From contig JAISTS010000033.1 in the NCBI GenBank assembly GCA_031272455.1, forward strand, positions 1 through 57,287: 57,287 nucleotides of DNA, written 5' to 3'. The stretch's first letter is position 1. Every line of letters begins with the position of its first letter. Below, piece after piece: positions 3,250 through 24,951 of this stretch. Origin of the DNA: Tannerella sp. (GTDB lineage Bacteria; Bacteroidota; Bacteroidia; Bacteroidales; Tannerellaceae). The notes under the pieces were generated by a model that saw nothing but the letters and a program-made list of their open reading frames with translations, ran no database searches and had not been told where the DNA came from. The position numbers and the translations under genes are program-made.

Positions 3250-6200
3250 TTACCGGATGACAACCTTATAACTTCGTCCATCGAGCAGGACGATATAAAC
3301 GCCGGGCGTCAGCGTAACGACGGTCTCGCCCTCTCCGACTTTTTGGCGTTTGTAGAGTTGTCCGGCGGTGTTGAAGATATGCGCTTCGGATGAGTGGGTC
3401 GTCTCGATATGCAGCTCACGTCCAATGGTATATACACGCTCAGACTTTATATCGTCGTTTGCGGACGTGCGTATGATATTGCTTATGTCAATCGTTATCG
3501 GTTCGGTAATCGACAGGATAATGATGGATATACTCCCGTCCGAATTAACCTGCCTTACCAGCCCTTCTTTATCGCGCAGAGGGATGTTGGTAGCCACACG
3601 CATGCTTGACAGGCTGTAACCTGCGCTGGGATGAACGGTGAATATAAAGTCGTGCGAACTCAATACGTAATACACTCCTGCGGCGGGCGAGGTTTCTACG
3701 CCTTCGACTTTGGGGATTGTTACTGCACGTGTGAGGATAACGTTTATTTCCTCCGTCCCCGCTTCATACGCGCCGATGTCGATGATGTCGTTGCCTATGC
3801 GCTCGTGGAAAGCGAGGTCGAAAGGCAGCGCTTCGAGGCTGCGCGGTCCGATGTCTTGCAAAGTGTGAGGCAGCAGGATATTCCACAGTGTGAGCCAGTT
3901 GTAAACGTAAGCTGTCCGTCCTCGGTCGATGGCTGCCGACGACATACGCAGGTTGTAATCGCCCTGCTGCATAGCGCCTTCCGTATCGAAGCCTTTCTTC
4001 ACAAAGACGGGATTGGCATCGTAGTTGTGAGTGCCGTCAATGCCGAATGTTGTGTTCCACTTCTCGCTGCCGCCCGACTGTTCGATGATGCTGTACGAGA
4101 AGTGCGGCGACGACGAAGCGTTGGCGATGTTGGGATAGGCTGTGGCGCGGTTGTCCCAGATTATAGTGTTGCGGATAACGGGATTGGATGCGCTGTTGGC
4201 TATGCCGCCGCCCGACGAGGATGCGAGGTTACCGCTGACGGTCAGGTTTGTCAGTTGCGGATTGGCGTTGAGGTTATACATCGCTGCGCCCTCACGAGCC
4301 GTGTTTCCGCTTATCTCCACATTATATATAACAGGCGAGCTGCTGTCGTTTAATATCCCGCCGCCGCGGTTTTGCGCCGCATTGCCGCGTATGATACTGT
4401 TGGCAATGACGGTCGATGAGTTGATGTTGCATATTCCCGCCCCGTCGGTTGCCTTACCGCCTTCGATGATGAAGCCGTCCCAGCGTCCGCCGTCGATATT
4501 CGTATTGGCGATAACCGTCAGCCCTGAGCCGCGCAGCACAGTCGGATACGCCGCAAAGTCGCGTTCGTACAGATAGTCTTCCCATCCGCCGAAGCCGCCA
4601 TAAACCGCTATGCTGTCGAAGAGCATCCGGTATGATGTGCCCGCAGGCGGACTGTAAACGCCCTCAGCCACCCAGACGAAATCGCCCGGCAGGGCATGCG
4701 CCAGCGCATCTTCGACACGCAGATAGGCGTCTGTCCACGAGCTGCCGTTCTGTGCGCCCGATGTGGCATCCTTATCGACGAACAAGCCCCGCACCGCCGC
4801 GACAATGGCTATCGTTGCATCAGCCGTCCGCGTGCAGGTCATTCCGTTGACCGTTACCGTTATGCTGACCTCCGCATTAAAGCCGCCTGCCGAGGGATAG
4901 ACGACCGTAACGGTGTCGCCCGTAGCCGTACTTGGGACGCCGCCCGCCAGTGTCCATGTATAAACAGCGCCGGCAGCGGGTTTATTGACCACCGTGAATG
5001 TCTGCGGATAGCCGGGCTTGGGCGGGGTAGTGGATATGTTGACTACCGCCGGAACGTGCTCGAAGCCATATATCACGACGATGGAATCGACCGTTGTCAG
5101 CGTGCCGTAGTTCGTCTCAAGCACATATTTGCCCGAAGTAGCGGCTGTCAGGTCGGGCGTGGTATGTATCGAGCCGTCGGGTAGTGTCCACTTGTAGTTC
5201 AGCCCGTCGTGCCCGCTGTGTATCGTTATCGGCGGCGTCGGATCGCACTGGAAGAGCGTGTCGTCGGCGTATATATCTTCAAAATCGAAGTTCCAGTGTG
5301 CCGTGTAAGAAAGTGCGCCGGTTGTGCCTGTCGGTATGGTTACGGTCAGCTGTTTGGTCGAGCCGTTGGAGCCTGTCCAGCCGGTAAATGTCTTGCCCGC
5401 GCGGGTCGGGTTGTTCAGCGTAAAGGTCTGCGTCGTATTGTAGGACGAAGGATTCACCGCCGTCCCGCCGTTGAGCGTGTATGTTATCGGATAATAGATT
5501 GTATCCCAGTGCACCGTGCAGGTGATATTGCCATAAACGCCCGACGGGATGGTGTTGCCGTCGGCTATTGTTACCGATGCCGAATCGCTGACAAACGACC
5601 AGTGATTGAACGTAAAGCCGGTGCGCGAAGGCGGGTTGAGTGTTATTGCCGGGTCGCCCATATTATATCCTGTCGGATTGGGCGTCGGGTTGGGTGTGCC
5701 GCCGTTGTAATGATAGTAAATCGCGTAAGCGTTTGTGCTCCATTGCGGCGTGGCGGTCAGGTTGCCGTAAGTGCCTGTCGGTATCTGCACCACGCTGATC
5801 ATTGGCGTAATCGAGGCGCTGTCGCTGGTGATATTCCATCCAGTAAAGGTATAGCCATTGCGCGTCGGCGGATTGAGCGTGATGGTCGGCGTGTCCACCG
5901 AATAAGTCGCGGGATTAGCCGGAGAAGGCGCTGTTGTCCAGTTGTTTATATAGGTGATAGTGTAAATATTCTTTGTCCATACAGCCGTAGCGGTCAGGTT
6001 GCCGTAGGTGCCCAGTACGACGTTGTCGTTAGTCGGCGCCACGCCTGCCGAGTCGCTTGTGATATACCAGTGCTGGAAAGTATAGCCTTTCTTCACCGGA
6101 TGACGCATAACGAACGATGTGTCGGCGCGATAAGTTGTCGGGTTGGGCGGCGTCGGGTTGGGTGCGTTTAGGGCGTCAACGTAGGTGATGGAGTAGTTGT

Positions 6201-9180: not shown

Positions 9181-9651
9181 ATGCCAAAGCGCGTTATATC
9201 AATAATATCTGTCGTATTAGCCGTTACCGTGCTGGTCGGTATGCACAGCGTTCCCCATCATCATCATGGGGAAGTGGTTTGCTTTTTGCCTGTTTGTGAT
9301 GACGACGGGCATAGCGATTGTGGCGAAAACTGCACACATCAGCACCACCACCATCATCATCATCACCCCGGAATGCCCGGAGAGGGTGGATGCCTCATCG
9401 AAGCAAGCTATTTATTTTCATTTGAACATAACGAACTGAAATTTAAGGATGCCGGTCAGTATGACTTAAATCCTTATGCACAACTCGTTTCGCAGTCGTT
9501 TTTGGCAGCGACGATTACGTGTTTGTGCGAAAACATAATTGTCTGTGTTGACAAAGAGTTTCGAGACTGGTATGCCTGTCTTTATCAGTCGGTTAACCTG
9601 AGCCGTGTGAACGGTTTACGCGCCCCGCCGCCCTTGTGGTTTGAGGTATGA
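9181..9651 (+). CDS. His-rich small exported protein (DUF6769-like)
   Basis: The product is 156 residues from ATG 9181; the frame is open back to 9106, but the -7 box at 9141 and the hydrophobic segment right after MPKRVIS favour the later start. A membrane or signal segment (VISIISVVLAVTVLVGM) is followed by HHHHG, a Cys/Asp/His cluster (CDDDGHSDCGENCTHQ) and a run of eight His. These are potential transition-metal ligands. It heads the CusBAC-like operon and its stop overlaps the open frame of the adaptor gene. I recognise it as the kind of small His-rich protein often found ahead of such operons in Bacteroidales; a periplasmic metal-binding or metal-handing role is inference. Confidence 0.72.
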   Translation: MPKRVISIISVVLAVTVLVGMHSVPHHHHGEVVCFLPVCDDDGHSDCGENCTHQHHHHHHHHPGMPGEGGCLIEASYLFSFEHNELKFKDAGQYDLNPYAQLVSQSFLAATITCLCENIIVCVDKEFRDWYACLYQSVNLSRVNGLRAPPPLWFEV

Positions 9652-9719
9652 AAATAAGGCGAAATCCTTTCAAAACTAAAAAATCCAACATATTAATTAT
9701 TATTTTAAAAGCATCAGAT

Positions 9720-10991
9720 ATGAAAAAATATATGATTTGCTTTTTCGTTGCTATTGCTTTGATTAGCAATGGTTGTCGCGGTAAACATAATCATAATGAA
9801 GATGACGGACATAACCACGCAACGGAAGAAGCACACGAACATTTTGAAGGCGACGGGCACGATCATTCGGCTCATCATCACGACGAAGGCGACGGGCACG
9901 ACCATTCGGCTCACCATCACGACGAAGGCGAGGTACACGCGCACGAAGCCGACGGCGAACATACCGACGAGATACATTTTTCGGCAGAACAGGCTGAAGC
10001 AGTCGGGCTTGAAGTGATTGAAATTGAGCCTGCGCCGTTCAGTCGCGTTGTAAAAACAAGCGGCAGGATACAGGCAACTCAGGGCGACGAGGCAACGCTG
10101 GCAGCTACAAGCGATGGCATAGTATCATTCGTAAATCCCTCTATATCAGATGGTATTGCTGTACGTGCAGGCGAGGCTGTTGTTACCGTTTCGGCTCGAA
10201 ACCTGCAAAATGGCGACCGCAGTGCTATTGCTGTAATCAATTATGAAACAGAGCAAAAAGCCTATCAACGCGCTGAAGAACTGTCGAAAGCGGGCATCAT
10301 TTCCGCCAAAGATTTTGAGGAGGTGCGCCGACGCTACGAGACGGCTAAAACGGCTTATGAGGCGCAGGCGGCGAATATCACGGCGCGGGGCGTAACGGTT
10401 ACCTCGCCCATCAGCGGCTTTATCAAGAACAGATTAGTCAATCAGGGTGAATATGTTACCGTTGGACAGCCGATTGCGACAATCACCCAGAACCGCCGGT
10501 TGCAACTCCGCGCCGAAGCGCCGGAGAAATATTACCGCACGCTGAAAGACGTCAGGACAGCCAATTTCAGGACGGCTTACGACGAAACGCTGTACAAAAC
10601 CTCGGATATGCGCGGTCGGCTGCTGTCGCTTGGCAAGTCGTCGGGCAACGAGTCGTTTTACGTGCCGATAACGTTTGAGTTCGACAACACGGGCGATATC
10701 CTCCCCGGCTCGTTCGCCGAAGTTTATCTGCTGACGGCGCCCATAGAGGCGGCGATTGCCGTTCCTGTCGCTGCGATAACCGAAGAACAGGGATTGTATT
10801 TCGTTTATATTCAGCTCGATGAGGAAGGATATCGAAAGCAGGAAGTAAGGCTCGGACCGGACGACGGCGAGCGGGTGCAAATCCTTTCCGGTCTGAAAAG
10901 CGGCGACAGAGTGGTTGTCAAGGGCGTCTATCAGGTCAAACTGGCTGCCATATCAAGCATCATCCCCGAAGGGCATACGCACAGCCATTAA
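9720..10991 (+). CDS. RND efflux periplasmic adaptor, CusB/CzcB-like, His-rich
   Basis: The product is 423 residues from the ATG at 9720; an upstream in-frame ATG at 9648 overlaps the previous stop (ATGA) but would place 24 polar residues before the signal peptide. The lipobox-like ISNGC (Cys19) suggests a lipoprotein. Residues about 20-85 are rich in His/Asp/Glu with a tandem 13-residue duplication (EGDGHDHSAHHHD), likely metal-binding. The rest is a membrane-fusion protein: a barrel-sandwich domain (about 110-270) flanking an alpha-hairpin (AEELSKAGIISAKDFEEV) and a beta-barrel/MP domain to the end, closing GHTHSH. It would bridge the CusA-like pump and the TolC-like channel encoded next. 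Confidence 0.9.
   Translation: MKKYMICFFVAIALISNGCRGKHNHNEDDGHNHATEEAHEHFEGDGHDHSAHHHDEGDGHDHSAHHHDEGEVHAHEADGEHTDEIHFSAEQAEAVGLEVIEIEPAPFSRVVKTSGRIQATQGDEATLAATSDGIVSFVNPSISDGIAVRAGEAVVTVSARNLQNGDRSAIAVINYETEQKAYQRAEELSKAGIISAKDFEEVRRRYETAKTAYEAQAANITARGVTVTSPISGFIKNRLVNQGEYVTVGQPIATITQNRRLQLRAEAPEKYYRTLKDVRTANFRTAYDETLYKTSDMRGRLLSLGKSSGNESFYVPITFEFDNTGDILPGSFAEVYLLTAPIEAAIAVPVAAITEEQGLYFVYIQLDEEGYRKQEVRLGPDDGERVQILSGLKSGDRVVVKGVYQVKLAAISSIIPEGHTHSH
9846..9923 (+). repeat. Tandem 39-bp duplication in the adaptor's His-rich region
   Basis: Two adjacent 39-bp units (9846-9884, 9885-9923) differ at only three third-codon positions and encode identical 13-residue peptides, EGDGHDHSAHHHD. The synonymous differences suggest the duplication is not brand new or that the peptide is under selection. 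Confidence 0.85.
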
Positions 10992-11033
10992 CTGCGCGGG
11001 AACAGTTTTATTCATTAAAAAAAACAGGAAATT

Positions 11034-14000
11034 ATGCTGAACAAAATAATACAGTTCTCGCTCAATAACCGTTTGCTGATACTTGTAGCGGCGGTTTTGC
11101 TGATGATGGCGGGTATTTATACGGCTACCGATATGGAGGTTGACGTCTTTCCCGACCTCAACGCGCCTACGGTTGTCGTGATGACCGAAGCTAAGGGGAT
11201 GGCTGCCGAAGAGGTGGAGCAGCTCGTTACTTTTCCGGTCGAGACGGCTGTCAATGGCGCCACACGTGTCCGTCGCGTCCGTTCGTCGTCAACGACGGGA
11301 TTTTCCGTTGTCTGGGTCGAATTTGACTGGGGGATGGATATTTACCGAGCGCGGCAAATCGTTTCGGAAAAGTTGGCTATTGTCGGCGACGCCCTGCCCC
11401 CGCAAGTCGGCAGTCCCACTCTGGGACCTCAGTCGTCCATCCTTGGCGAGATGATGATCATCGACTTGACGGCTGAACATACTACGTTGCAGGAGTTGCG
11501 GACGCTGGCAGATTGGACTATCCGACCGCGTCTGCTTTCGATGGGCGGCGTGGCGCAGGTGTCGGTGCTGGGTGGCGAAATACGCGAATATCAGATACTT
11601 CTCGACCCGCAAAAAATGAAACACTACGGCGTCAGTCTCGACGAGGCGCTTGCCATAACGCGCGATATGAACCGCAATGCCTCCGGCGGAGTGCTATATG
11701 AATACGGTAATGAATATATTATACGTGGCGTCGTGGCGACAAATAAATTGGATGCGCTCGGCACAACGGTAGTCAAGCTGGCGGGTGGCGCGCCGGTGCT
11801 GCTCAGCGATATAGCCGATGTCCGTATCGGCGATAAGGCTCCCAAGCTCGGCGTAGCGTCGTATCATGGCGAACCGGCTGTTTTGCTGACCGTTACGAAG
11901 CAGCTGAACACCAGCACACTCGATTTGACGGCAAAGATAGACCGTTCGCTCGACGAACTGAAACAGTCGCTGCCCGCCGACGTGAAAATTTCGACAGATG
12001 TTTTCCGGCAGTCGCGGTTTATAGAAAGTTCCATCGGCAACATTAAAGAGGCGCTGTTTGAAGGTGGCATCTTCGTCGTTATCGTGCTGTTTATCTTTCT
12101 GATGAATGTGCGCACGACGGTCATTTCGCTTGTTACCATTCCGCTGTCGCTTGTCGTTTCTATCTTGGCCTTGAAGATGATGGGATTGACAATCAATACG
12201 ATGAGTCTGGGCGGTATGGCTATTGCCATCGGTTCGCTCGTTGACGATGCCATTGTTGACGTCGAAAATGTCTTTAAACGGCTGCGCGAGAACAGGGCGA
12301 AGCCCGAAAGCGAACGCCAGAGCGCAATGCAAATCGTGTTTGAAGCCTCGAAAGAAGTGCGTATGCCGATACTCAATTCGACGCTTATCATCGTTGCAAG
12401 TTTTGTGCCGCTGTTTTTCCTGTCGGGAATGGAAGGGCGTATGCTGGCGCCGCTCGGAATAGCATTTATCACTGCGCTGTTTGCATCGACGGTTGTGGCG
12501 CTGACGCTGACGCCGGTGATGTGCAGTTATATGCTTGTCAATCCGCCTAAGAAAGAAAAATCCGACCGCGAGCCGGTCTGGGTGCAGGGACTCAAATCGC
12601 TGTACAGCCGTGCGTTGGCGTGGACGCTGAAATACCGCAAACCGGCGCTGTGGGCTGCTGTGGCGCTGTTTGCGCTTACTATCTTAACCGCCGTCTCGCT
12701 TGGGCGCAGCTTCCTGCCGCCGTTCAACGAAGGCTCGCTGACAATCAATGTGAGCACTTTGCCCGGCATCTCACTCGAAGAATCTGACCGTATGGGGCGT
12801 ATGGCTGAAAATATCCTGCTCTCGGTGCCCGAAATACAGACGGTAGGGCGCAAGACAGGACGCGCCGAGCTTGACGAACACGCCCTCGGTGTGAATGTTT
12901 CCGAAATAGAAGCTCCGTTCAAACTCGGCAAACGCTCGAAAGACGCTTTCCTTGCCGATGTGCGCAGCAAACTGAAAATCCTGCCCGGCGCCAATATCGA
13001 AATCGGACAGCCCATCTCGCACCGGATAGATGCGATGTTGTCGGGGACGCAAGCCAATATCGCAATCAAACTGTTCGGCGCCGACTTGAACACAATGTTT
13101 GCGCTTGGTAATCAGGTGAAAGCGGCTATCAGTGATGTCGAAGGCATAGCCGACCTCAACGTCGAGCAGCAGGTTGAACGTCCGGAGTTGAAAATTACGC
13201 CGCGCCGCGAGATGCTGGCGAAATATGGCGTTACGCTGCCCGAATTTGCCGAAATTGTCAATGTGCTGCTTGCCGGCGAGACTGTTTCGCAGGTGTATGA
13301 AGGCAATCGTGTGTTTGACCTGACGCTGAAAGTGAATGGCGACAGTCGGGCGACGATGGAACGCATCAAAGACCTCGTTGTCGATGCCGGAAACACAAAA
13401 ATCCCGTTTTCCAATATAGCCGAAATCACCTCGTCAACAGGTCCCAACACGATTAACCGCGAAAATGTAGGGCGCAAAATCGTCATTTCGGCAAATGTGG
13501 CGGGGCGCGACCTGCGTGGTGTCGTCAACGATATACGCGAAAGGGTAAGCGAAAAAGTTTCGTTGCCCGAAGGCTATTTCATCGAATATGGCGGGCAATT
13601 CGAGAGCGAGGAAACCGCCTCGCGAACTCTGCTCGTTGCCTCCGCTTTTGCTATCCTTGTGATTTTTATGCTGCTGTTCAACCAGTTCAGGAGCGTGTCG
13701 CAGTCGGTCGTTATCCTGCTGAACCTGCCACTTGCGCTTATCGGCGGCGTGTTCATACTCTTTTTCACGGGCGGCGAAATCAGTATTCCCGCCATCATCG
13801 GATTTATCTCGCTGTTCGGCATAGCTACGCGAAACGGTATGTTGCTCATTTCGAGATATAATGACTTGCGCAAAGAAAATATCCCGTTAAATGAATGTGT
13901 GATGAAAGGCTCGCTTGACCGCCTCAATCCTATCCTGATGACGGCGTTCACGTCGGCGCTGGCGCTTATCCCGCTGGCGCTTGGGGGCGAACTGCCCGGC

Positions 14001-14138
14001 AACGAGATACAAAGCCCGATGGCGCAGGTCATCCTCGGCGGATTGCTGACCTCGACATTGCTCAACGGCTTTATCATCCCCGTGATGTATTACATCACTC
14101 ATCGTAAAACGGATATTGAAACATATAAAATTAACTGA
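11034..14138 (+). CDS. Heavy-metal RND efflux pump, CusA/CzcA family
   Basis: At 1034 residues the length fits the family. It is an inner-membrane proton-driven trimeric pump. The N-terminus (LNKIIQFSLNNRLLILVAA) is TM1, followed by the family signature DVFPDLNAPTVVV. TM4 carries VDDAIVDVEN, the acidic proton-relay cluster of the heavy-metal group. Two large periplasmic loops and a duplicated second half end at about residue 1034. It follows the adaptor gene by 42 bases and precedes the channel gene by 2. The substrate is a divalent or monovalent metal by family and by the His-rich partners; which metal cannot be read from sequence. Confidence 0.93.
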   Translation: MLNKIIQFSLNNRLLILVAAVLLMMAGIYTATDMEVDVFPDLNAPTVVVMTEAKGMAAEEVEQLVTFPVETAVNGATRVRRVRSSSTTGFSVVWVEFDWGMDIYRARQIVSEKLAIVGDALPPQVGSPTLGPQSSILGEMMIIDLTAEHTTLQELRTLADWTIRPRLLSMGGVAQVSVLGGEIREYQILLDPQKMKHYGVSLDEALAITRDMNRNASGGVLYEYGNEYIIRGVVATNKLDALGTTVVKLAGGAPVLLSDIADVRIGDKAPKLGVASYHGEPAVLLTVTKQLNTSTLDLTAKIDRSLDELKQSLPADVKISTDVFRQSRFIESSIGNIKEALFEGGIFVVIVLFIFLMNVRTTVISLVTIPLSLVVSILALKMMGLTINTMSLGGMAIAIGSLVDDAIVDVENVFKRLRENRAKPESERQSAMQIVFEASKEVRMPILNSTLIIVASFVPLFFLSGMEGRMLAPLGIAFITALFASTVVALTLTPVMCSYMLVNPPKKEKSDREPVWVQGLKSLYSRALAWTLKYRKPALWAAVALFALTILTAVSLGRSFLPPFNEGSLTINVSTLPGISLEESDRMGRMAENILLSVPEIQTVGRKTGRAELDEHALGVNVSEIEAPFKLGKRSKDAFLADVRSKLKILPGANIEIGQPISHRIDAMLSGTQANIAIKLFGADLNTMFALGNQVKAAISDVEGIADLNVEQQVERPELKITPRREMLAKYGVTLPEFAEIVNVLLAGETVSQVYEGNRVFDLTLKVNGDSRATMERIKDLVVDAGNTKIPFSNIAEITSSTGPNTINRENVGRKIVISANVAGRDLRGVVNDIRERVSEKVSLPEGYFIEYGGQFESEETASRTLLVASAFAILVIFMLLFNQFRSVSQSVVILLNLPLALIGGVFILFFTGGEISIPAIIGFISLFGIATRNGMLLISRYNDLRKENIPLNECVMKGSLDRLNPILMTAFTSALALIPLALGGELPGNEIQSPMAQVILGGLLTSTLLNGFIIPVMYYITHRKTDIETYKIN

Positions 14139-14140
14139 TT

Positions 14141-15319
14141 ATGAAGAAAATATATATATTATTTGCGGCATTGACCCTTGCCCTGCCGCTTATGGCGCAG
14201 GACGAAATAAGCAGGGCGCTGGCGGCTGTCGAAGCTAATAATACGACGCTGAAAGCCCTTCGCGAAGGCGTCGAGGCGCAGAAACTGGAAAACCGGACGG
14301 GGATTTATCTTGAAAATCCCGAAGTCGGCTTCAACTACCTTTGGGGCGCACCTAACGTTATTGGCAACCGTACCGATGTCAGCGTGGTGCAAAAGCTTGA
14401 TTTTCCGACGCTTTCGGGATTGAAAAGCCGTGTCGCCGACGGTCAGAACGAACTCGCCGAACTGCGTTATCTTGCCGACCGTATGGCAATCCTGCTCGAA
14501 GCGAAACAGTATTGCATTGATTTGATTTACAGCAATAAAATGTATAACGAGATGCAACTGCGCTGCGCAAATGCCCGAACAATAGCCGCGTCGTACGCCA
14601 AAATGCTCGAAAGCGGCGAGGTTAGCCGTATCGAATATAACAAGGCGCAGCTCAACCTCTCGACTGCGGAGGGCGAATTGCAACGCGCAGGTATTGAGCG
14701 CGATGCCGTCAGAGCCGAGTTGCGACGACTGAACGGCGGACAGGATATCAGGCTCGAAGGCGACAGCTACGGCGACGATACCCTTCCGCAGGCTTTTGAG
14801 GACTGGTATGCCATAGCCGAAACGCGCAACCCTCTGCTCGCTTACGTCAGGCAGGAAATCGAAGTCAGCCGACAGCGCATAAGCCTCAATAAGGCGCAGG
14901 GGCTGCCTGTCCTGTCGGGAGGTTATATGAGCGAAAAGGTTGTAGGTGAGCATTTTCGCGGTATCACACTTGGCGTATCCATACCGCTGTGGGCGAACAG
15001 GAACAATGTGCGTCGCGCTCAGGCTGCCGCACGAGCCGCCGAGATGCGCCACGAAGATGCTAAACAGCAGTTTTACAATCGCTTGCAGATACTATATGCT
15101 CGCGCTGCAGGCTTGGAAACGACGTCTGCCAAGTATCGTGTGGCGCTTGCCGAACTCGACAATACGGCGATGCTCAAACAGGCGCTCGACGCAGGCGAAA
15201 TGTCGCTGCTCGAGTATCTTCTTGAAACGGCGATGCGCTACGATGCTATCGACAAAGCCCTTGCCGCCGAACGCGATTATCGCCGCGCTGTAGCTGAGCT
15301 TGAGATGTATTCGGACTGA
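14141..15319 (+). CDS. TolC-family outer-membrane channel, CusC-like
   Basis: The product is 392 residues, somewhat shorter than typical TolC proteins (about 420-480). The signal peptide MKKIYILFAALTLALPLMAQ is followed by long amphipathic helices. Two outer-membrane efflux repeats are recognisable (EVSRIEYNKAQLNLSTAEGE and DAGEMSLLEYLLETAMRYD). It starts 2 bases after the pump gene, so it is translationally coupled to it and is most likely the outer-membrane exit of the same metal efflux system. The operon ends here, facing the convergent regulator gene 10 bases away. Confidence 0.88.
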   Translation: MKKIYILFAALTLALPLMAQDEISRALAAVEANNTTLKALREGVEAQKLENRTGIYLENPEVGFNYLWGAPNVIGNRTDVSVVQKLDFPTLSGLKSRVADGQNELAELRYLADRMAILLEAKQYCIDLIYSNKMYNEMQLRCANARTIAASYAKMLESGEVSRIEYNKAQLNLSTAEGELQRAGIERDAVRAELRRLNGGQDIRLEGDSYGDDTLPQAFEDWYAIAETRNPLLAYVRQEIEVSRQRISLNKAQGLPVLSGGYMSEKVVGEHFRGITLGVSIPLWANRNNVRRAQAAARAAEMRHEDAKQQFYNRLQILYARAAGLETTSAKYRVALAELDNTAMLKQALDAGEMSLLEYLLETAMRYDAIDKALAAERDYRRAVAELEMYSD

Positions 15320-15329
15320 AAGTGCGTTT

Positions 15330-16235
15330 TTACGACTCTTTCCTGAACGCCACGGGTGAGATCCCGACGTGCTTTTTGAAGAATTTCCCGAACGACGACT
15401 GGTCGGGGAAGCAGAGTCGGTCGGCTACTTCCTGAACGGTGATTCGCGGCGTGCGGAGCAGATTTTTTGCTTCGACTATCAGCGTGTCCTGAATCCATCG
15501 GCTGGCGGAATGATTGCTTTGCTGTCGCAGGATTAGGGACAGATATTGCGGTGTGATACAGAGCTTTTCGGCATAAAACGACACTGCGTGTTCCGTCTTG
15601 CAGTGTTCGTTGAGCAGCGTCAGGAAACCGGCGAAAATCTCCTCCTGCCTTGACAGCGGCGCCTCGTGGTGATAGTCTTTCCGCGTAAGCGACAGATTGC
15701 CCATTTCGAGTAAAAACTCTTTGATGGAAACCGATATCATTTCTCTGTGAAACAGATGTTTAAACATCAGCATCTTGCGCTTGACGTTTTGCAGGTTGGC
15801 ATAGAGGAAGGCAAAATCGTCAGGCTCGTAAACGATGAACGGATGGCGTTTGAAATTCATATACGACACTATCGCCGACGGGTCTTTAGGCATATCAAAC
15901 GAGGCGTCGATAAACGATTTGGCTATCAGCAACATCCATACTTGCGTATTTGGTTCGCTGCTGATCATCTGCGTAATATGTGTCGGCAGTATCCATACGA
16001 TGCCGTTTGCGGGGATATGATGCGTGTGATAATCAATGGAAATATCTAATCCACCGCGCATTATGCCCAGTAGCGTGAAGGCTTCGCGGCGCGACGGCGA
16101 CATCGACGAGAGCGCGTCGTCGGTATAAACCTGACGGCGGTCGAACTCCACCAGCAATACTTCGTCGCGAAAATTCTCCAAAGCGACGATTGACTGCTTA
16201 AATCGATTAATGTACGGAATCCATTCGGGCGTCAT
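15330..16235 (-). CDS. AraC-family transcriptional regulator
   Basis: The product is 301 residues. The N-terminal ~190 residues form a cupin-like sensing domain; the C-terminal ~100 form the two helix-turn-helix AraC domain (AEKLCITPQYLSLILRQ and VQEVADRLCFPDQSSFGKFF, the usual second-helix signature). It lies between two RND efflux operons, convergent with the metal operon and divergent from the second one, so control of the second operon is the simplest guess. No effector can be named. Confidence 0.88.
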   Translation of the reverse strand: MTPEWIPYINRFKQSIVALENFRDEVLLVEFDRRQVYTDDALSSMSPSRREAFTLLGIMRGGLDISIDYHTHHIPANGIVWILPTHITQMISSEPNTQVWMLLIAKSFIDASFDMPKDPSAIVSYMNFKRHPFIVYEPDDFAFLYANLQNVKRKMLMFKHLFHREMISVSIKEFLLEMGNLSLTRKDYHHEAPLSRQEEIFAGFLTLLNEHCKTEHAVSFYAEKLCITPQYLSLILRQQSNHSASRWIQDTLIVEAKNLLRTPRITVQEVADRLCFPDQSSFGKFFKKHVGISPVAFRKES

Positions 16236-16604: not shown

Positions 16605-17975
16605 ATGTATAATATAAACGAAATGAAACAGTTAAGTAAAAAATGGCGAATGTTGGTCGGCGTCGTGCTGCTATCGGCGATGTCGGCTGCGACGGCATTT
16701 GCGCAGGACACGCTGACGCTGAGTCTGGAACAGGCGATTGAAATTGCGCTGAGCGAAAGTCCGACCATCAGAATCGCCGACAGGGAAATCGAACGGGTCG
16801 ATTATTCCAAGAAATCGGCATGGTACGGATTGCTGCCTACATTGGACGGGACGGGACAGTATGCCAAGTATATGGTGCCGGGTCAGATGAGTATGATGGG
16901 GCAGGTAATGAACTCGCCGACAGACTATAACGCCTCGCTCGGATTGCAGTTGGCGTTGCCGCTCGTAGCGCCGTCGCTGTGGAAATCCATCCAGCTCTCG
17001 GAACTGGAAATGCAGATGGCTGTCGAAAAGTCGCGGGCGTCGAAAATCACGCTGCGCAACGATGTAACGAAAGCATATTACAGCATTTTGCTGGCTCAGG
17101 ACTCGTACAACGTGCTCGAAGAGGGCTACAAGATTGCGAAAGACAATTATGACGAAGCCAAAAAACGCTTTGAAGTCGGATTGAGCGCCGAATACGACTA
17201 CATCTCGGCGGAAGTGCAGATGACTAACCTGATGCCCAATCTGTTACAGGTCAAGAACGGCATCTCGCAGGCGAAGATGTACCTGAAAGTGCTGATCGGG
17301 ATGGACGTATCGGTGCCGCTGTCGGTCGTGGGCAATCTTGCCGATTTTGAAAACGAAGTAGCGCTGCGAAGCGCGGAACCGGAAATGGGATTGGTAAACA
17401 ATACCGATTTGAAACAGCTTGATATTCAGCGCAGTCAGTTGGATAAATCCTTTGAAATACAGCGCTCGCTGCGAATGCCTACACTGGCGTTTTTCAGTCA
17501 ATACGGCTATTCGGGAATGGGTAACAATGCGACTACCATGAATTTAGGAGGAATGCCCATCGAGGTAGAAAAAAGTTCGGCATGGTACAGTCAGGGAATG
17601 TTGATCGGATTGACGTTGAACATCCCAATTTTCCATATCACCGACATTATCAAGGAGAAACAGATAAAAATACAGTCGAACCAGTTGCAGATACAGCGCG
17701 AATATTTGGAAAACTCGCTGAATTTTCAGATTCGCACGTCGATTGACAATATGAACAAGACGGTCGAACAGGTCAATGCTGCCAAGATCGCTATTGCGGG
17801 CGCGCAGAAGGCATACACCATCTCGACCAAGCGCTACGAAGTGGGCGTAGGCACGATGCTCGAATTGCAGAACGCCGCGCTCGCCGTTACGCAGTCGCAA
17901 CTGTCGTACCGACAGGCGATATCCGATTTTCTCACGGCAAAAGCCGATTTAGACAAAGTGTTAGGTAACGAATAA
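16605..17975 (+). CDS. TolC-family outer-membrane efflux protein
   Basis: The product is 456 residues, full length for the family. A later ATG (16623, MKQLSKKWRMLVG) also suits a signal peptide (ATAFA before Q). Two OEP repeats follow (about 40-240 and 250-450), each with a beta-strand pair and long coiled helices (GLSAEYDYISAEVQ and GVGTMLELQNAALAVTQSQ, the canonical membrane-proximal turns). It is first in the operon TolC-adaptor-pump-PII-like, the usual Bacteroidetes order for HAE-type RND systems. The neighbouring AraC-family gene probably controls it. Confidence 0.9.
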   Translation: MYNINEMKQLSKKWRMLVGVVLLSAMSAATAFAQDTLTLSLEQAIEIALSESPTIRIADREIERVDYSKKSAWYGLLPTLDGTGQYAKYMVPGQMSMMGQVMNSPTDYNASLGLQLALPLVAPSLWKSIQLSELEMQMAVEKSRASKITLRNDVTKAYYSILLAQDSYNVLEEGYKIAKDNYDEAKKRFEVGLSAEYDYISAEVQMTNLMPNLLQVKNGISQAKMYLKVLIGMDVSVPLSVVGNLADFENEVALRSAEPEMGLVNNTDLKQLDIQRSQLDKSFEIQRSLRMPTLAFFSQYGYSGMGNNATTMNLGGMPIEVEKSSAWYSQGMLIGLTLNIPIFHITDIIKEKQIKIQSNQLQIQREYLENSLNFQIRTSIDNMNKTVEQVNAAKIAIAGAQKAYTISTKRYEVGVGTMLELQNAALAVTQSQLSYRQAISDFLTAKADLDKVLGNE

Positions 17976-17990
17976 AAAACGAATCAAGTT

Positions 17991-19034
17991 ATGAATAATA
18001 ATAAAAATAAGTATAAGATGAAGATGAAATTGCAAATTGCGGCGCTGACGGCTGTGTCGATCCTCACCGCCTGCACAGGAAATAAAGACGACGCCAGAAT
18101 GAAGATGGCGGATGAGACGCCGACAGTAAAAGTCGCTCTCGTTACCGAACGCCCCGTTGACCAGATACGGGAATACACGGCGACGGTCGAGGCGGAGGTA
18201 ACGAACCAAATCGCTCCGATGTCGCCCGTCAGGATAGACCGTATCTATGTCGAAGTGGGCGACCGTGTTGCCAAAGGTCAGAAGCTCGTTCAGATGGACG
18301 CCGCCAATCTGACGCAGATCAAACTGCAATTAGACAATCAGGCTGCTGAATTTCTGCGTATTGATGAGCTGTACAAAGTCGGCGGCGTGTCAAAATCCGC
18401 TTGGGAGTCGGCAAAAATGGCGCTCGACGTTCGCGAAACATCGTACAAGAATATGCTCGAAAACACTGCCCTGTTAAGCCCTGTCAATGGCGTGGTTACC
18501 GCCCGCAATTATGACAATGGCGATATGTACAGCGGTGCGCAGCCGGTGCTGACGGTCGAACAAATCACGCCCGTCAAACTGCTGATCAACGTGTCGGAGA
18601 CCTATTTCACGCAGGTCAAGAAAGGGCAAAAAGTAACCATCAAATCCGATGTTTACGGCGATGAGGAGTTTGAAGGGACGATCAACCTGATCTATCCGAC
18701 GATCAACTCCGCCACGCGCACGTTCCCCGTCGAGGTGCGTGTGCCCAATGGCGATATGCGTATCCGTCCGGGTATGTTTGCGCGTGTAACGCTGAATTTC
18801 GGGACGCTCAACCACGTCGTCGTGCCCGACCTCGCCATCGTGAAGCAGACAGGCTCAGGCGAACGCTATGTGTTTGTTTATAACGGCGGTAAGGTCTCGC
18901 GCCGCGTAGTCGAACTCGGTCGCCGAATGGGGGAAGAATACGAACTCGTATCGGGAATAGATAACAACTCGCAGGTAGTAGTAGCCGGTCAGTCGAAACT
19001 GCTTGACGGAACGGAAGTCAGGGTCGAGGAGTAA
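17991..19034 (+). CDS. RND efflux periplasmic adaptor lipoprotein (MFP family)
   Basis: The product is 347 residues. An in-frame Met at residue 10 (18018) also gives a good lipoprotein signal, with LTAC as lipobox; the first 9 residues are Asn/Lys-rich. A lipoyl-like half domain (VRIDRIYVEVGDRVAKGQ) and a short alpha-hairpin are followed by the second lipoyl half (ALLSPVNGVVTARNYDNGDM), then beta-barrel and MP domains. It connects the pump to the TolC channel in the periplasm. It lies 15 bases after the TolC gene and 26 before the pump gene. Confidence 0.9.
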   Translation: MNNNKNKYKMKMKLQIAALTAVSILTACTGNKDDARMKMADETPTVKVALVTERPVDQIREYTATVEAEVTNQIAPMSPVRIDRIYVEVGDRVAKGQKLVQMDAANLTQIKLQLDNQAAEFLRIDELYKVGGVSKSAWESAKMALDVRETSYKNMLENTALLSPVNGVVTARNYDNGDMYSGAQPVLTVEQITPVKLLINVSETYFTQVKKGQKVTIKSDVYGDEEFEGTINLIYPTINSATRTFPVEVRVPNGDMRIRPGMFARVTLNFGTLNHVVVPDLAIVKQTGSGERYVFVYNGGKVSRRVVELGRRMGEEYELVSGIDNNSQVVVAGQSKLLDGTEVRVEE

Positions 19035-19060
19035 AAATTAACAATTAAACACAGAAAGAA

Positions 19061-22000
19061 ATGAGTTTATACGAAGGCTCGGTTAAAAAGCCGATTATGA
19101 CCACGCTATGCTTCGTTGCAGTTGTGGTGTTCGGTCTCTTTTCGCTCAGCAGGTTGCCTATCGACCTGCTCCCCGATATCGAGACAAATACGATAATGGT
19201 ATTTACTTCGTATCCGGGCGTGAGCGCTTCGGAAATCGAAAATAACGTGTCGCGACCGCTTGAAAACACGCTCAACTCGGTTGCCAATTTGAAGCATATC
19301 ACTTCAAAATCGTCTGAAAATACATCGCTTATCACGCTCGAATTTGAATATGGATACGACATCGACGTGCTGACGAACGATGTGCGCGACAAGCTGGATA
19401 TGGTGAAATCGTCCCTGCCCGACGACGCTAACGACCCGATAATCTTCAAGTTCAGCACTGATATGATTCCTATCCTTATGCTGTCGGTACAGGCAACCGA
19501 AAGTCAGGCGGCGCTCTACAAGATTCTCGACGAGACGGTAGCCAATCCGATTGCACGTATCGCGGGCGTAGGTACGGTTTCCATTTCGGGAGCGCCTCAG
19601 CGCGAAATCTACGTCTATTGCGACCCCAACAAGCTCGAAGCGTATAACCTCACGATCGAGGGTATCAGCGCTGTCATCGGAGCTGAAAATATGAACATTC
19701 CGGGCGGTAATTTCGACATCGGCAATCAGACTTATTCGCTGCGTGTCGAGGGCGAGTTTACGGATGCGCATCAGATGGATAACATCGTTGTCGCCACTTA
19801 CAACGGCGCGAATGTCTATCTCCGCGATGTTGCCGAGATTAAGGATACCGTACAGGAACGCGCTCAGGATGTGTATAATAACGGCGTTAAGGGCGCGATG
19901 ATAATCATTCAGAAACAATCGGGCGCCAATACGGTGGAAATAGCAAATAAGGTGCGTGCACTGCTGCCCGACCTGCAAAAAAAGCTGCCGCCCGATGTGA
20001 AACTCGGCGTCATTGTCGATTCGTCTGATAACATTAATAATACGATAGGCAGTTTGACCGAAACGGTGCTCTTTGCATTGCTTTTTGTTGTGATTGTCGT
20101 GTTCTTTTTCCTCGGACGCTGGCGGGCGACGGTCATTGTGGCAATTACTATCCCGCTCTCACTCGTCGCATCGTTTATCTATCTGGGAATGACGGGTTCG
20201 TCGCTTAATATCATCTCGCTGTCGGCGCTTTCGATAGCGATAGGTATGGTGGTGGACGACTCCATTGTAGTGCTCGAAAATATCACTACGCATATCGAAC
20301 GAGGCTCGGAGCCTAAACAAGCGGCGGTGCACGGCACCAACGAGGTCGCCCTCTCGGTTATCGCCTCGACGCTGACGATTGTCGCCGTGTTCTTCCCGCT
20401 GACGATGGTTTCGGGTATGTCGGGCGTGCTGTTCAAACAGCTTGGCTGGATGATATGTATCATCATCGGTATCTCGCTGGCGGTGTCGCTGACGCTGACG
20501 CCTATGCTAAGTTCGCAGCTGCTTCGTCTTCAAAAGAAACAGACCAAAGCCTTCCGCTTTTTCTATCGTCCGATAGAGAAATTCCTCGACAAGATTGATG
20601 TGGTATATTCGCGGATGCTGAACTGGTCGATGCGCCACAGGACAGTGGTAATATTAAGCGGACTGGCGTTTTTTGCCCTCAGTATGCTGTGCGTTTCGGG
20701 TATCAGTACCGAGTTTATCCCCACACAGGATAGCGGTCGTATCGGCGTAACGCTCGAACTGCCTATCGGTACGCGCAAAGAAATTGCGAAAGAACTTGCC
20801 ACCGAGCTTGCCGACAAATGGCTGTCGGATGAAAAATATCATGTCGTAACCTGTAACTTCCGCGTCGGACAGGCTGACGGAGACAATACTTTCGCCTCGA
20901 TGCAGGACAACGGTCCGCATATTATCTCGTTCAATATCAGCCTGACAGATCCCGAAGACAGAAATGTTACTCAGGATGAAATCTGCGATATTATGCGAGC
21001 CGACATACAGGCATATCCCGACTTTAAAAAATTTCAGGTGATGTCGGGCGGCGGAATGTCTATGATGGGTGGCAGCAGCAGCGCCGACTTCGAGATTTAC
21101 GGCTACGATATGACGGAAACCGACCGTCTGGCGGCAGAGCTTGAAAGTCAGCTGCGCGGCGTGAAAGGCGTTGCCGAAGTGATGGTCAGCCGCGGTGATT
21201 ACCAGCCCGAATACAGGGTGGAGTTCGACCGCGAGAAACTTTTGATGTTCGGCGTAAACCTTGCAACGGCAGGCACATATCTTCGTAACCGCTTTAACGG
21301 CGCTACTGCATCGCGCTATCGCGAAGACGGTGAAGAATACGACATCGTAGTGCGCTATGCCCCGCAGTTTCGCGAAAGCATCGAGTCAATAGAAAATATC
21401 CTGATATACAACTCGCGCGGACAGGCTATGAGAGTCAAAGACCTTGGCGAAGTCGTTGAGCGCGAATCGCCTCCGAGCATCGACCGCAAAGACCGCGAGC
21501 GTATCGTTACCGTCTCGGCTATGCCGGGTCCGAGAGTGCCGCTCGGCGATGTAGTGATTGCAGGTCAGGCTATTATAGCTAAAATGGACGTCCCGTCGGA
21601 CATCGCTATTCAGATAGCCGGTTCTTACGAAGAGCAGCAGGACTCGTTCCGCGACCTCACGACGCTCGCTATCCTTATCGTGCTGCTGGTGTTCATCGTG
21701 ATGGCGGCGCAGTTTGAGTCGCTCACCAATCCGTTCATCATAATGTTCTCGCTGCCCTTCGCTTTCAGCGGCGTCATCCTGATGCTGTTTATCACCAATA
21801 CTACGCTGAACATAATGAGTATGCTCGGCTCTATAATGCTGATCGGTATCGTCGTTAAGAACGGTATCGTGCTGATAGACTTCACCGGTCTGTGTCGCGA
21901 ACGAGGGCAGGGCGTGATAAGCGCCGTCGTAACGGCAGGCAAAAGCCGTCTGCGTCCCGTGCTGATGACTACGCTGACAACCATTCTCGGTATGATACCT

Positions 22001-22228
22001 ATGGCTGTGCTATCGGGACAAGGCTCGGAGATGTGGCGCCCGATGGGTATTGCCGTCATCGGCGGTCTGACCGTCTCGACCGTGCTGACCCTGATTTTCG
22101 TCCCGACGCTCTACTGCACATTTGCAGGCGTGGGTATCAAACGTGCACGCAAATCGCTGCGTAAGAAACGCGAATTGCAGGAATACTTCGATTCGCATAA
22201 ACAGTATATCATCAAGAACAAGAAATAA
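19061..22228 (+). CDS. RND multidrug-type efflux pump (HAE1/AcrB-like)
   Basis: The product is 1055 residues, typical for the family. TM1 begins SVKKPIMTTLCFVAVVV; the porter-domain signature RLPIDLLPDIE follows; TM4 has GMVVDDSIVVLEN with the paired Asp of the proton relay. Residues about 650-665 hold a Met/Gly/Ser-rich loop (SGGGMSMMGGSSSADF) in the periplasmic part. The C-terminal half repeats the fold. Substrates may be drugs, lipids or other amphiphiles; nothing in the sequence decides. The PII-like gene starts 3 bases after its stop. Confidence 0.92.
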   Translation: MSLYEGSVKKPIMTTLCFVAVVVFGLFSLSRLPIDLLPDIETNTIMVFTSYPGVSASEIENNVSRPLENTLNSVANLKHITSKSSENTSLITLEFEYGYDIDVLTNDVRDKLDMVKSSLPDDANDPIIFKFSTDMIPILMLSVQATESQAALYKILDETVANPIARIAGVGTVSISGAPQREIYVYCDPNKLEAYNLTIEGISAVIGAENMNIPGGNFDIGNQTYSLRVEGEFTDAHQMDNIVVATYNGANVYLRDVAEIKDTVQERAQDVYNNGVKGAMIIIQKQSGANTVEIANKVRALLPDLQKKLPPDVKLGVIVDSSDNINNTIGSLTETVLFALLFVVIVVFFFLGRWRATVIVAITIPLSLVASFIYLGMTGSSLNIISLSALSIAIGMVVDDSIVVLENITTHIERGSEPKQAAVHGTNEVALSVIASTLTIVAVFFPLTMVSGMSGVLFKQLGWMICIIIGISLAVSLTLTPMLSSQLLRLQKKQTKAFRFFYRPIEKFLDKIDVVYSRMLNWSMRHRTVVILSGLAFFALSMLCVSGISTEFIPTQDSGRIGVTLELPIGTRKEIAKELATELADKWLSDEKYHVVTCNFRVGQADGDNTFASMQDNGPHIISFNISLTDPEDRNVTQDEICDIMRADIQAYPDFKKFQVMSGGGMSMMGGSSSADFEIYGYDMTETDRLAAELESQLRGVKGVAEVMVSRGDYQPEYRVEFDREKLLMFGVNLATAGTYLRNRFNGATASRYREDGEEYDIVVRYAPQFRESIESIENILIYNSRGQAMRVKDLGEVVERESPPSIDRKDRERIVTVSAMPGPRVPLGDVVIAGQAIIAKMDVPSDIAIQIAGSYEEQQDSFRDLTTLAILIVLLVFIVMAAQFESLTNPFIIMFSLPFAFSGVILMLFITNTTLNIMSMLGSIMLIGIVVKNGIVLIDFTGLCRERGQGVISAVVTAGKSRLRPVLMTTLTTILGMIPMAVLSGQGSEMWRPMGIAVIGGLTVSTVLTLIFVPTLYCTFAGVGIKRARKSLRKKRELQEYFDSHKQYIIKNKK

Positions 22229-22231
22229 TTT

Positions 22232-22525
22232 ATGAAAGCTATATTTATACCATACAATCAGGCGTTCAAAGAGCGCCTGATTGAAATGCTCGAAAGGTCG
22301 AACATACGCGGATTTACTATGTGGGAACAGGTGCAGGGACGCGGCAGCCATAAGGGCGAACCTCATTACGGCAGTCACGCCTGGCCTACGATGAACTCAG
22401 CTATCCTGACCATCGTCCCCGACGAAGCCGTTGACAGCCTGCTCAAAAAAATCCACGCCATCGACCTCGAAGCCGAGCTGCAAGGACTGCACGCCTTCGT
22501 TTGGAATGTGGAGAAGGGGGTTTAA
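22232..22525 (+). CDS. PII-like small protein with His-rich T-loop, in RND operon
   Basis: The product is 97 residues, the length of a PII/GlnB-fold subunit. The beta-alpha-beta order is visible: KAIFIPYNQAFKERLIEML, a loop at about 35-53, SAILTIVPDEAVDSLLKKI, then LHAFVWNVEK. The loop matching the PII T-loop carries no uridylylation-type Tyr but reads QVQGRGSHKGEPHYGSHAWP, with His40, His45, His49 and flanking Trp. It begins 3 bases after the pump stop, so it is co-translated with the pump. Related PII-like proteins are known beside transporters and are thought to gate them. A metal, nucleotide or pump-binding role here is inference. Its stop overlaps the stop of the convergent receptor gene. 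Confidence 0.78.
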   Translation: MKAIFIPYNQAFKERLIEMLERSNIRGFTMWEQVQGRGSHKGEPHYGSHAWPTMNSAILTIVPDEAVDSLLKKIHAIDLEAELQGLHAFVWNVEKGV

Positions 22526-24951
22526 AAATCGACAGACACACGCAGGTTGATTTGTCGTCCGGTAAGATAATTGGGAACGGCGTGTTGCTGATTGTAAATA
22601 TCTGTAATCCAGTAGTATGAGCCGGTGTTGTCGATGTCAAAGAGATTAAAGAGATCGATTCCGAGCCATACATTTTTGAAATTGCGGAAGACGCCACGAT
22701 CCATCAGTGCGCTTTCGCCGCTGGCAAGTTGGTAGGTTACGCCGATATCGACGCGGCGATAGGGTGGAGTACGGTGATAGCCGGCTTCGTAACCTTTGCG
22801 GGGCACCGTAACGGGAATGCCGCCCGCAAGTACGCCCTTGAGATTGAGCATAATACGCTTGTTGTTAGGATAATAATCCTGAAAAAACAGCGACAGATTG
22901 TAAAGTTGACTGTTGGGCATCGGCGCCTTGGTAACGCCACGGATAGTCTGCTCCGACTGCATCAGCGACAGGCTAAGCCACGAATCGGTGCCGGGTACAA
23001 ACTCGCCGAACAACTTCATATCCACCCCCGCTATATAGCCCGTAGCGCAGTTTTCGCCGTAATAGCGGATTTTCACATTATCGACAGTATAAGGATTGAT
23101 GTTGTCTAATCTTTTGTAATACAGCTCGGTAGTGAATTTAAAATTGCGTCCGGCAGCCAGAAATGCATAGTCGCCGCCACCGATAAAATGGATTGAGCGT
23201 TGCGATTTTAGGCGGTCGTTCAGCAGGATAATGCTGTTGCCGTTCTCGTCGGTCGTTTCGATACGCAACTCTTTGTAGAAAGGCGGCTGATAATAGAAAC
23301 CTGTGGCGAAACGGAACGTAAAATCTTGATTTGCAGTAGGAATAAAACCTATCGACAAACGCGGACTGAAAATGGCTTCGCGATTGTAATCCCAGTAACT
23401 GCCCCTTATGCCACCTATCAGAGTGAACATACCCTGAGCTGTACGAAATTTGAAAACATCCTGAATATAAGCCGAATAGCGAGTGCTTTCCAATTTGTTG
23501 TCGGAAAACAGATTTGCTATCACGTTAACGTCCGTTCCGGTTTGCGGCAGCGAATATCCGGCAGAGTCGCGCCGTTCCCATTCGCTGATTTTATCTGTTA
23601 TGAGTTCGCGTTGAACATTCAGTCCCCACTTAATCGTATGAACAGCAGCGAGTTGTGAAATGCCGTACAAGCCTGCAGTTGCGACGGTTGCCGACAGGCG
23701 GTTGCGTGCGTGTTCGTGAAAATATGCCAGTGACAATGCCTCTACCGGATTTTCGATCTCGTCCGAAGCTACCCTGTTCAGGGCGTAAGTGCTTGTGATG
23801 TCGTAACTTTCTTCCTCGCGGGTATTGAATGCCGACAGCTGCAATCCGATTTCGGTTTTCTCATTAACGTTGTGTTTCAGTGTCGCCGCGCCAAAAAGCG
23901 TTTCAAATTTATCGCGTTCCCTGCCATCGAAGTAAACGGTGAAAGTCTGCGGTTTGTTGGCTGTCCCGAATTTTGTGTCGCGTTCGTGAGGCGTGAAACG
24001 GTAGTTGTTCGACGACACATTGCCAAGGAAATTCAGCTCCCAGCGCGACGTAAACCGATAGGTCATATATGTCTGGAAATCAATAAAAACGGGATTGTAT
24101 TCCGCTTTTGTGTCCATAGTGCCGAGCAGCGAGCGGTTTGTTTTGTAGCGCAGTCCCGTAACCTGCGAAAATTTGCCTGCCGAACTGCCGACGTAAGCGT
24201 TTGCGCCAAGGAAACTTGCTGTTACAGAGCCTTCAAGCGCAGCAGGTTTTTTGTAGGTGATGTCGAGCACCGAACTCATCTTATCGCCATAACGCGCCTC
24301 AAATCCGCCTGCCGAAAAACGCACTTCTTCGGTCATATTAGGATTGATAAAACTCAAGCCTTCCTGTTCGCCCGAACGTATCAGCAAGGGTCGGAACACT
24401 TCTATGCCGTTGACATACACGATGTTCTCGTCGTAGCTGCCGCCTCGCACAGAATATTGCGAGCTTAGTTCGTTGCTCGACGACACACCGGCTTGCGTAA
24501 TGACAAGGCTCTCGATGCTGCCGCCCGACGGGTCGGGCAAAATCCTCATACGTTGAGCATCAAGCGTTTCCAGCGTACTTGTGTTGCGACGCGCCGCCGT
24601 AACCTCCACCTGTCCAAGCTCAAGCGACATATAATTCATCTGCACGTTGACGCGCATATCCGACGCGACGGTCGGGATAATCCGCTCGGCTTTGTTGTAG
24701 CCCAGACACGAAAAAAGCAGGGTAACCGAGTCGCCCTCGGCAACCGAAAGCGAATAATATCCTTTCTCGTTGGTTATCGCCCCCGTCATCGTGTTTTTTA
24801 CCTGAACAGCAACAAGTTCGACAGGATTACCGTCGGCGTCTCTGACATTTCCGGAAATCTGCACACGCTTGCCCTGAGCCAATGCAACGACATCGACAAA
24901 CAACAGCAATAGCGCCGTAACTGCGCTAACTTTCATCACGTTTCTAATCAT
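22522..24951 (-). CDS. TonB-dependent outer-membrane receptor with carboxypeptidase-regulatory-like domain
   Basis: The product is 809 residues. A signal peptide (about 1-25, ALA before Q) is followed by a CarboxypepD_reg-like beta-sandwich (about 30-115; ISGNVRDADGNPVELVAVQV), a plug domain (about 130-240; YSVRGGSYDENIVYVNGIEV) and a 22-strand-type barrel ending in the outer-membrane signature RVSVDF. There is no SusD partner beside it, so it is more likely a siderophore, metal or small-ligand receptor than a SusC-type glycan importer. It is monocistronic and convergent with the PII-like gene; the two stop codons overlap within TTTAAA. Confidence 0.88.
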   Translation of the reverse strand: MIRNVMKVSAVTALLLLFVDVVALAQGKRVQISGNVRDADGNPVELVAVQVKNTMTGAITNEKGYYSLSVAEGDSVTLLFSCLGYNKAERIIPTVASDMRVNVQMNYMSLELGQVEVTAARRNTSTLETLDAQRMRILPDPSGGSIESLVITQAGVSSSNELSSQYSVRGGSYDENIVYVNGIEVFRPLLIRSGEQEGLSFINPNMTEEVRFSAGGFEARYGDKMSSVLDITYKKPAALEGSVTASFLGANAYVGSSAGKFSQVTGLRYKTNRSLLGTMDTKAEYNPVFIDFQTYMTYRFTSRWELNFLGNVSSNNYRFTPHERDTKFGTANKPQTFTVYFDGRERDKFETLFGAATLKHNVNEKTEIGLQLSAFNTREEESYDITSTYALNRVASDEIENPVEALSLAYFHEHARNRLSATVATAGLYGISQLAAVHTIKWGLNVQRELITDKISEWERRDSAGYSLPQTGTDVNVIANLFSDNKLESTRYSAYIQDVFKFRTAQGMFTLIGGIRGSYWDYNREAIFSPRLSIGFIPTANQDFTFRFATGFYYQPPFYKELRIETTDENGNSIILLNDRLKSQRSIHFIGGGDYAFLAAGRNFKFTTELYYKRLDNINPYTVDNVKIRYYGENCATGYIAGVDMKLFGEFVPGTDSWLSLSLMQSEQTIRGVTKAPMPNSQLYNLSLFFQDYYPNNKRIMLNLKGVLAGGIPVTVPRKGYEAGYHRTPPYRRVDIGVTYQLASGESALMDRGVFRNFKNVWLGIDLFNLFDIDNTGSYYWITDIYNQQHAVPNYLTGRQINLRVSVDF

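Follow-up and report, generated by a model that had tools for sequence, protein, structure and literature searches.

The 97-amino-acid PII-like protein studied here belongs to a real, conserved and already named family that goes with a single drug-type RND pump in Bacteroidales. We consider it, with a probability of about 0.5, to be a trimmed-down PII-type sensor dedicated to this single pump, with putative control from the cytosol. Read from sequence, the pairing of gene and pump across Bacteroidales suggests that the protein responds to a signal within the cell and adjusts pump activity. If it does control an RND pump, internal metabolic state would switch efflux, and the cytosolic face of the pump would be a regulatory surface.

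The PII-like gene closes a four-gene RND operon

The window, that is, the whole stretch of DNA analysed (57,287 nucleotides from Tannerella sp.), carries the operon on its forward strand. The operon begins with a TolC-type outer-membrane channel (16605..17975; Pfam OEP, 1.7e-48), followed by an RND periplasmic adaptor, or membrane fusion protein (17991..19034; Pfam HlyD_D23, and NCBIfam RND_mfp at 217.7 bits against a cut-off of 94.9). Next are a 1055-amino-acid RND permease, the partner of the PII-like protein (19061..22228; Pfam ACR_tran, 8e-260), and the PG0541-family PII-like protein itself (22232..22525), identified from its open reading frame, Pfam, NCBIfam and a structure model. Given the order TolC, adaptor, RND, PII-like, the PII-like gene is the fourth of the operon, and the gene order across 16605-22525 bears out an earlier note on this DNA that had said so. 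The same note had placed a PII-sized protein three bases past the pump stop. The coordinates agree: the permease stop codon occupies 22226-22228 and the ATG start of the PII-like open reading frame lies at 22232, leaving a spacer of three bases, TTT. The PII-like gene is also the last of the operon, because the next gene, a TonB-receptor-like gene at 22522-24951, lies on the opposite strand and its end overlaps that of the PII-like gene by 4 bases.

Records of Parabacteroides distasonis and Bacteroides finegoldii have a homologous gene order, in which the corresponding gene is named PG0541 family transporter-associated. In these two loci, a gene for a TetR/AcrR-type regulator lies ahead of the TolC gene, while in the window an AraC-type gene on the minus strand (15330-16235) occupies that place.

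The protein has a PII fold and lacks the canonical PII loops

The window protein scores 36.1 bits against Pfam P-II (PF00543; cut-off 25), which places it within the PII superfamily model. It scores 119 bits against NCBIfam NF045581, PG0541 family transporter-associated (cut-off 45), covering positions 1-91 of the 91 in the profile. That family is defined by a gene beside a transporter, and here the RND permease lies three bases upstream. Alignment A2 comprises the window protein and 80 relatives, and each of these 81 members has a P-II match at an E value of 1 or less. Together with the two profile scores, this indicates that the PII assignment is not due to chance. DUF190 was also considered and set aside; the Pfam match of the window protein is weak (12.2 bits, below the cut-off), and 34 of the 81 members match at E values up to 1.

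The structure model of a single chain (pLDDT 89.3) has strands at residues 2-9, 29-34, 55-62 and 89-92, and helices at 10-22 and 64-80. The predicted fold is a ferredoxin-like beta-alpha-beta-beta-alpha-beta core, with the T-loop between strands 2 and 3. All 50 of the PDB matches listed in a structure search are PII or PII-like proteins. The closest fold among them is CPII, whose structure was solved with AMP/ADP and which has 22-28% identity to the window protein in structural alignments. The PII fold claimed in the earlier note is therefore upheld by the P-II score, the predicted fold and the PDB matches, and no other fold is predicted.

The nucleotide-binding loops of canonical PII proteins are missing. 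In alignment with PII, the ATP-binding B-loop (TGxxGDGxxF) is absent from the window protein, which has EAELQGLHAF in its place, where alignment is confined to basic residue 87 and F89. The canonical C-loop, RxRTGE, is absent as well, since the chain stops short of the aligned site. Without a GDG B-loop, and with a chain that ends before RxRTGE, ordinary sensing of ATP and 2-oxoglutarate is unlikely. Position 87, which aligns with the lysine or arginine of the PII B-loop, is basic in 149 of 151 distinct proteins (R in 120, H in 26, K in 3). Because this residue and the G-[RKQ]-G base of the T-loop are kept, a reduced nucleotide site is possible. Any particular ligand is a guess, as the canonical nucleotide loops are missing.

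The gene follows one RND pump

Across the relatives sampled, the PII-like gene sits behind an RND gene. Of 167 loci, window included, 160 match the family profile (loci L053-L059 do not and lie outside this count), and in 156 of the 160 the gene immediately preceding on that strand encodes an RND protein. The same holds for 147 of 151 distinct proteins, a non-random sample because the loci were the best-scoring ones of each search (the best 30 at most, and the best 80 of 556 in one search). The RND gene lies within 100 bp in 132 of these 147, and 10 of the 147 overlap the permease gene by 4 bp; the gene distances for L016, and probably for L031, are off, as tblastn read past a stop.

Four of the 151 are exceptions. 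L052 falls below the NCBIfam cut-off and has no RND gene nearby; it is no family member by score, yet it was kept among the 151 and scored as a miss. L128 lies at a contig end, and in L157 the pump is one gene away. The fourth, L105, has no pump within 4.1 kb. In its metagenome-assembled genome (G674), the pump orthologue (58% identity) lies on a different contig, with a MORN-repeat gene after it. The genome's single PII-like gene is intact and has other neighbours. Thus, with the caution due to a metagenome-assembled genome, gene and pump are both retained in G674 though they are apart.

Of 246 genomes sampled from the order of the window, 139 have a family match above threshold; across the phylum, only 22 of 392 sampled genomes do. 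Phocaeicola massiliensis and Bacteroides faecis are among the species that carry the gene. We compared 20 genomes with the PII-like gene and 34 without it, all hand-picked. The 34 comprise 23 of the same order (20 order-survey genomes listed without a match, and three more) and 11 of the same class, the latter 11 and the three being drawn from the phylum survey. Wherever the gene is present (20 of 20 genomes), the pump beside it is the top match for the window pump (45-73% identity), with 12-157 bp between the ends of the pump and PII-like matches. Other RND matches listed in these genomes reach at most 31% identity at full length and at most 34% as fragments, bar one: a 40% pump paralogue in genome G060, which lies beside a second PII-like gene. 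Among the 34 genomes without the gene, one (G458) has a pump orthologue, at 56% identity, and the other 33 have no pump match above 34% among the matches listed (E 1e-120). The difference between 20/20 and 1/34 gives a Fisher p of 7e-14 for genomes that are neither random nor independent. The gene-pair conservation that the earlier note had proposed to check thus holds in both directions, from gene to pump and from pump to gene.

The pump orthologue of G458 is followed by an ABC-transporter gene, with no PII-like gene. Since the orthologue occurs there without it, the PII-like protein is not an obligatory pump subunit. We also find that none of 33 RND loci (30 from the 34 genomes, that of G458 among them, plus three in the genome of the window itself) has a downstream gene matching the family profile, the best E value being 0.93. 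In many of these loci the next gene downstream appears, by eye, to encode TolC.

A pump tree (60 linked, 29 unlinked), built by a quick method that gave warnings on two long branches, places 53 linked pumps and the G458 pump in one clade (SH-aLRT 100). The seven remaining linked pumps, from the distant loci L045-L051, fall outside this main clade at a position that the tree leaves unresolved.

Three Bacteroidales records contain plasmid relatives of the PII-like protein at E values up to 0.01. No viral relatives were confirmed.

The linked pump is drug-type by score

The top-scoring model for the PII-linked permease is RND_permease_2, at 812.7 bits, which falls short of the 1250 that this model requires. 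Against TIGR00914 (CusA/CzcA) the permease scores 440.9 bits, below the cut-off of 701. By these scores we class it as probably drug-type and not CusA/CzcA, the drug-type models scoring higher while remaining under their own strict cut-offs. Its TM4 region reads GMVVDDSIVVLEN.

The window also holds a CzcA-type operon (9181-15319), directly upstream of the drug-type operon and composed of genes for a His-rich small protein, an adaptor, a permease and TolC. The permease of this second operon (11034-14138) scores 802.9 bits against TIGR00914, above the cut-off of 701, and there is no PII-like gene in the operon.

The T-loop carries a family signature, and its histidines vary

The T-loop is the best conserved part of the PII-like protein, with a mean majority of 0.77 compared with 0.60 elsewhere. 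Its codons, for about residues 35-54, lie at 22334..22393 on the forward strand and include H40, H45, H49, W51 and P52. Column counts over the 151 distinct proteins give the family consensus G-R-G-S-x-x-G-E-P-H-x-G-[ST]-H-[AT]-W-P. The base G-[RKQ]-G hardly varies, and its two glycines, G36 and G38, are identical throughout (151/151). P52 is found in 150 proteins, and H49 and W51 in 143 each. The string quoted in the earlier note, with H40, H45, H49 and the neighbouring W51, is present in the window protein. It had been described as replacing the T-loop, and this part does not hold: it is a signature common to the whole family and not a local replacement.

The earlier note had further supposed that the protein could sense a metal or small molecule and throttle the pump from the cytosol. 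We regard the metal version, with the three T-loop histidines as ligands, as improbable. Two of the histidines do recur, H45 in 134 of the 151 proteins and H45 together with H49 in 127, and PII-NG proteins occur in CzcABC metal operons, with a metal role proposed for one of them in the passages of PMC7726332 that concern them. Against a metal role, there is no fixed set of T-loop histidines, because H40 is variable (present in 16/151, among the least conserved positions of the signature), H45 is replaced by Arg in 16 proteins and H49 by Arg in seven. All three histidines occur together in 16 of the 151, and on this count the family does not fit a His-based sensor with a fixed ligand set; metal sensing was rejected as the main reading. 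Metal sensing is also disfavoured because the linked pump falls below the CusA/CzcA cut-off, and because the one CzcA-type pump in the window lacks a PII gene.

A distant PII-like group (L045-L051) has a different T-loop, resembling GKGHxT..HLGxRxFPG, and a C-terminal IRLFQxPLE. These genes adjoin an RND pump in 7/7 loci; the pumps belong to a separate RND clade within the phylum. Genome G034 (locus L219, reverse strand) has two tandem PII-like genes after the pump, at bases 3295-3899 of the reversed locus, and the second of them keeps the core and has a degraded T-loop signature. This pair could form mixed trimers.

Indirect tests of contact with the pump give a mixed picture

The cytosolic loops of linked pumps, with borders set by eye, show more conservation than expected relative to one clade of unlinked control pumps (9 of 1018 circular shifts reach this level). 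Compared with a second unlinked control clade there is no excess (202 of 1018 circular shifts as high). In the C-terminal tail of linked pumps, 0 of 36 positions are conserved at 95%. Covariation of the PII-like protein with its pump, measured as mutual information, was computed on 69 pairs, equivalent to an effective 34 sequences. The top 200 pairs show no enrichment: three involve the T-loop and 21 the cytosolic pump regions, and both shares are below those of the columns themselves (7 of 68 for the T-loop and 102 of 718 for the cytosolic pump).

A possible mechanism and its alternatives

Each step of the mechanism beyond the gene pairing is one that we infer. The PII-like protein would form a trimer, as PII proteins do, and the trimer would bind a small ligand from the cytosol, an adenine nucleotide being the likeliest. 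The candidate ligand site is a pared-down form of the inter-subunit site of PII proteins, in which the T-loop base (G36-R37-G38-S39) and basic residue 87 would take part. The T-loops could then fold or release, allowing the trimer to dock on the cytosolic face of the pump. RND pumps are trimers. Docking may in turn lower or permit transport. It is somewhat short of an even chance that all of this holds at once: that the PII-like trimer gates a drug-type RND pump from the cytosol, trimer on trimer, in response to a nucleotide or metabolite, that PII proteins were recruited at least twice, and that efflux is so coupled. If true, PII folds joined RND operons at least twice, in heavy-metal pumps (PII-NG) and in drug-type pumps of Bacteroidales (PG0541). 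Multidrug efflux in Bacteroidales would then also be linked to metabolic state at the post-translational level.

A PII-type sensor could instead act on another cytosolic target, such as an enzyme or a transcription factor, and report the state of the pump or the cell, the operon tying the genes in expression only. Some targets of PII proteins are soluble, as UmpH is for GlnK (PMC11617674), and the G458 pump without an adjoining gene and the G674 gene elsewhere in its genome are compatible with such a role. We think it unlikely, given that presence of the gene follows one pump orthogroup in the genomes sampled, and that no second, equally tied gene is seen within the operon. A little less likely again is an assembly or stability factor, whose PII fold would aid folding or trimerisation of the permease and sense nothing. 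The short gaps and 4-bp overlaps beside the permease gene would fit co-translational action of this kind; yet the most conserved part of the protein is the T-loop, the signalling part of PII proteins, and the other 33 RND loci, including that of the G458 pump, have no PII-like gene downstream.

The gene might also be a neutral hitch-hiker kept through inheritance of the operon, as would be consistent with the co-inheritance of pump and gene in one clade. Such baggage is very hard to reconcile with glycines identical in all 151 proteins and a proline in 150, or with the intact gene that G674 keeps away from the pump, and we give it almost no weight. A dedicated sensor of the pump is the reading that we prefer.

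Relation to known PII systems

PII-NG proteins are the closest precedent in arrangement. Passages of PMC7726332, which credit the definition of PII-NG to Sant'Anna et al. 2009, describe them as encoded with CzcABC pumps in Geobacter. They share with the window protein a PII fold and a place beside an RND pump, and differ in lineage, pump class and host phylum. Among our loci, a PII gene follows RND adaptor genes in Manganitrophus, and in Cupriavidus a PII gene is divergent from a CzcA operon. A Thauera plasmid locus (L180) has the order TolC, adaptor, PII, CzcA, and we take its PII protein to be a PII-NG by its place. The proteins of these three loci (L180, L181 and L183), all taken to be PII-NG by place, keep a GDG or HDG B-loop and a RIRTGE C-loop, whereas the window protein has neither. 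BLASTP of the window protein against the L180 protein found no similarity. We therefore do not count the window protein as a PII-NG, as the full loops are absent and its pump scores 440.9 bits against a CusA/CzcA cut-off of 701.

The earlier note had called this mode of RND regulation not generally recognised, which holds in part. The family already bears the name transporter-associated in NCBIfam, and PII-NG proteins next to CzcABC pumps are published, as the passages of PMC7726332 attest; at the same time, no function of PG0541 was found in the open-licence PMC literature. PG0541 itself is a conserved hypothetical protein in a passage on Bacteroidales-specific proteins, and a hypothetical protein in part of a published expression table. 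The PII-like gene does not appear in the passages seen of PMC10434189, PMC12694919, PMC12382797 and PMC4790292. On direct control of RND pumps, the corresponding passages of a review (PMC10710835) name the small proteins AcrZ, YajC and WatS1, and no PII protein.

The window protein is a member of the NF045581 PG0541 family, from which it shows no difference. SbtB-SbtA and CPII differ from it in that their known partners are tied to bicarbonate and not to efflux, and its identity to CPII is low (22-28%). In GlnK-AmtB, too, a PII gene is paired with one trimeric transporter, but the transporter is of another class, and canonical PII proteins have the ATP and 2-oxoglutarate loops that are absent here. 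The window's own genome has a separate PII gene, followed by an ammonium-transporter gene.
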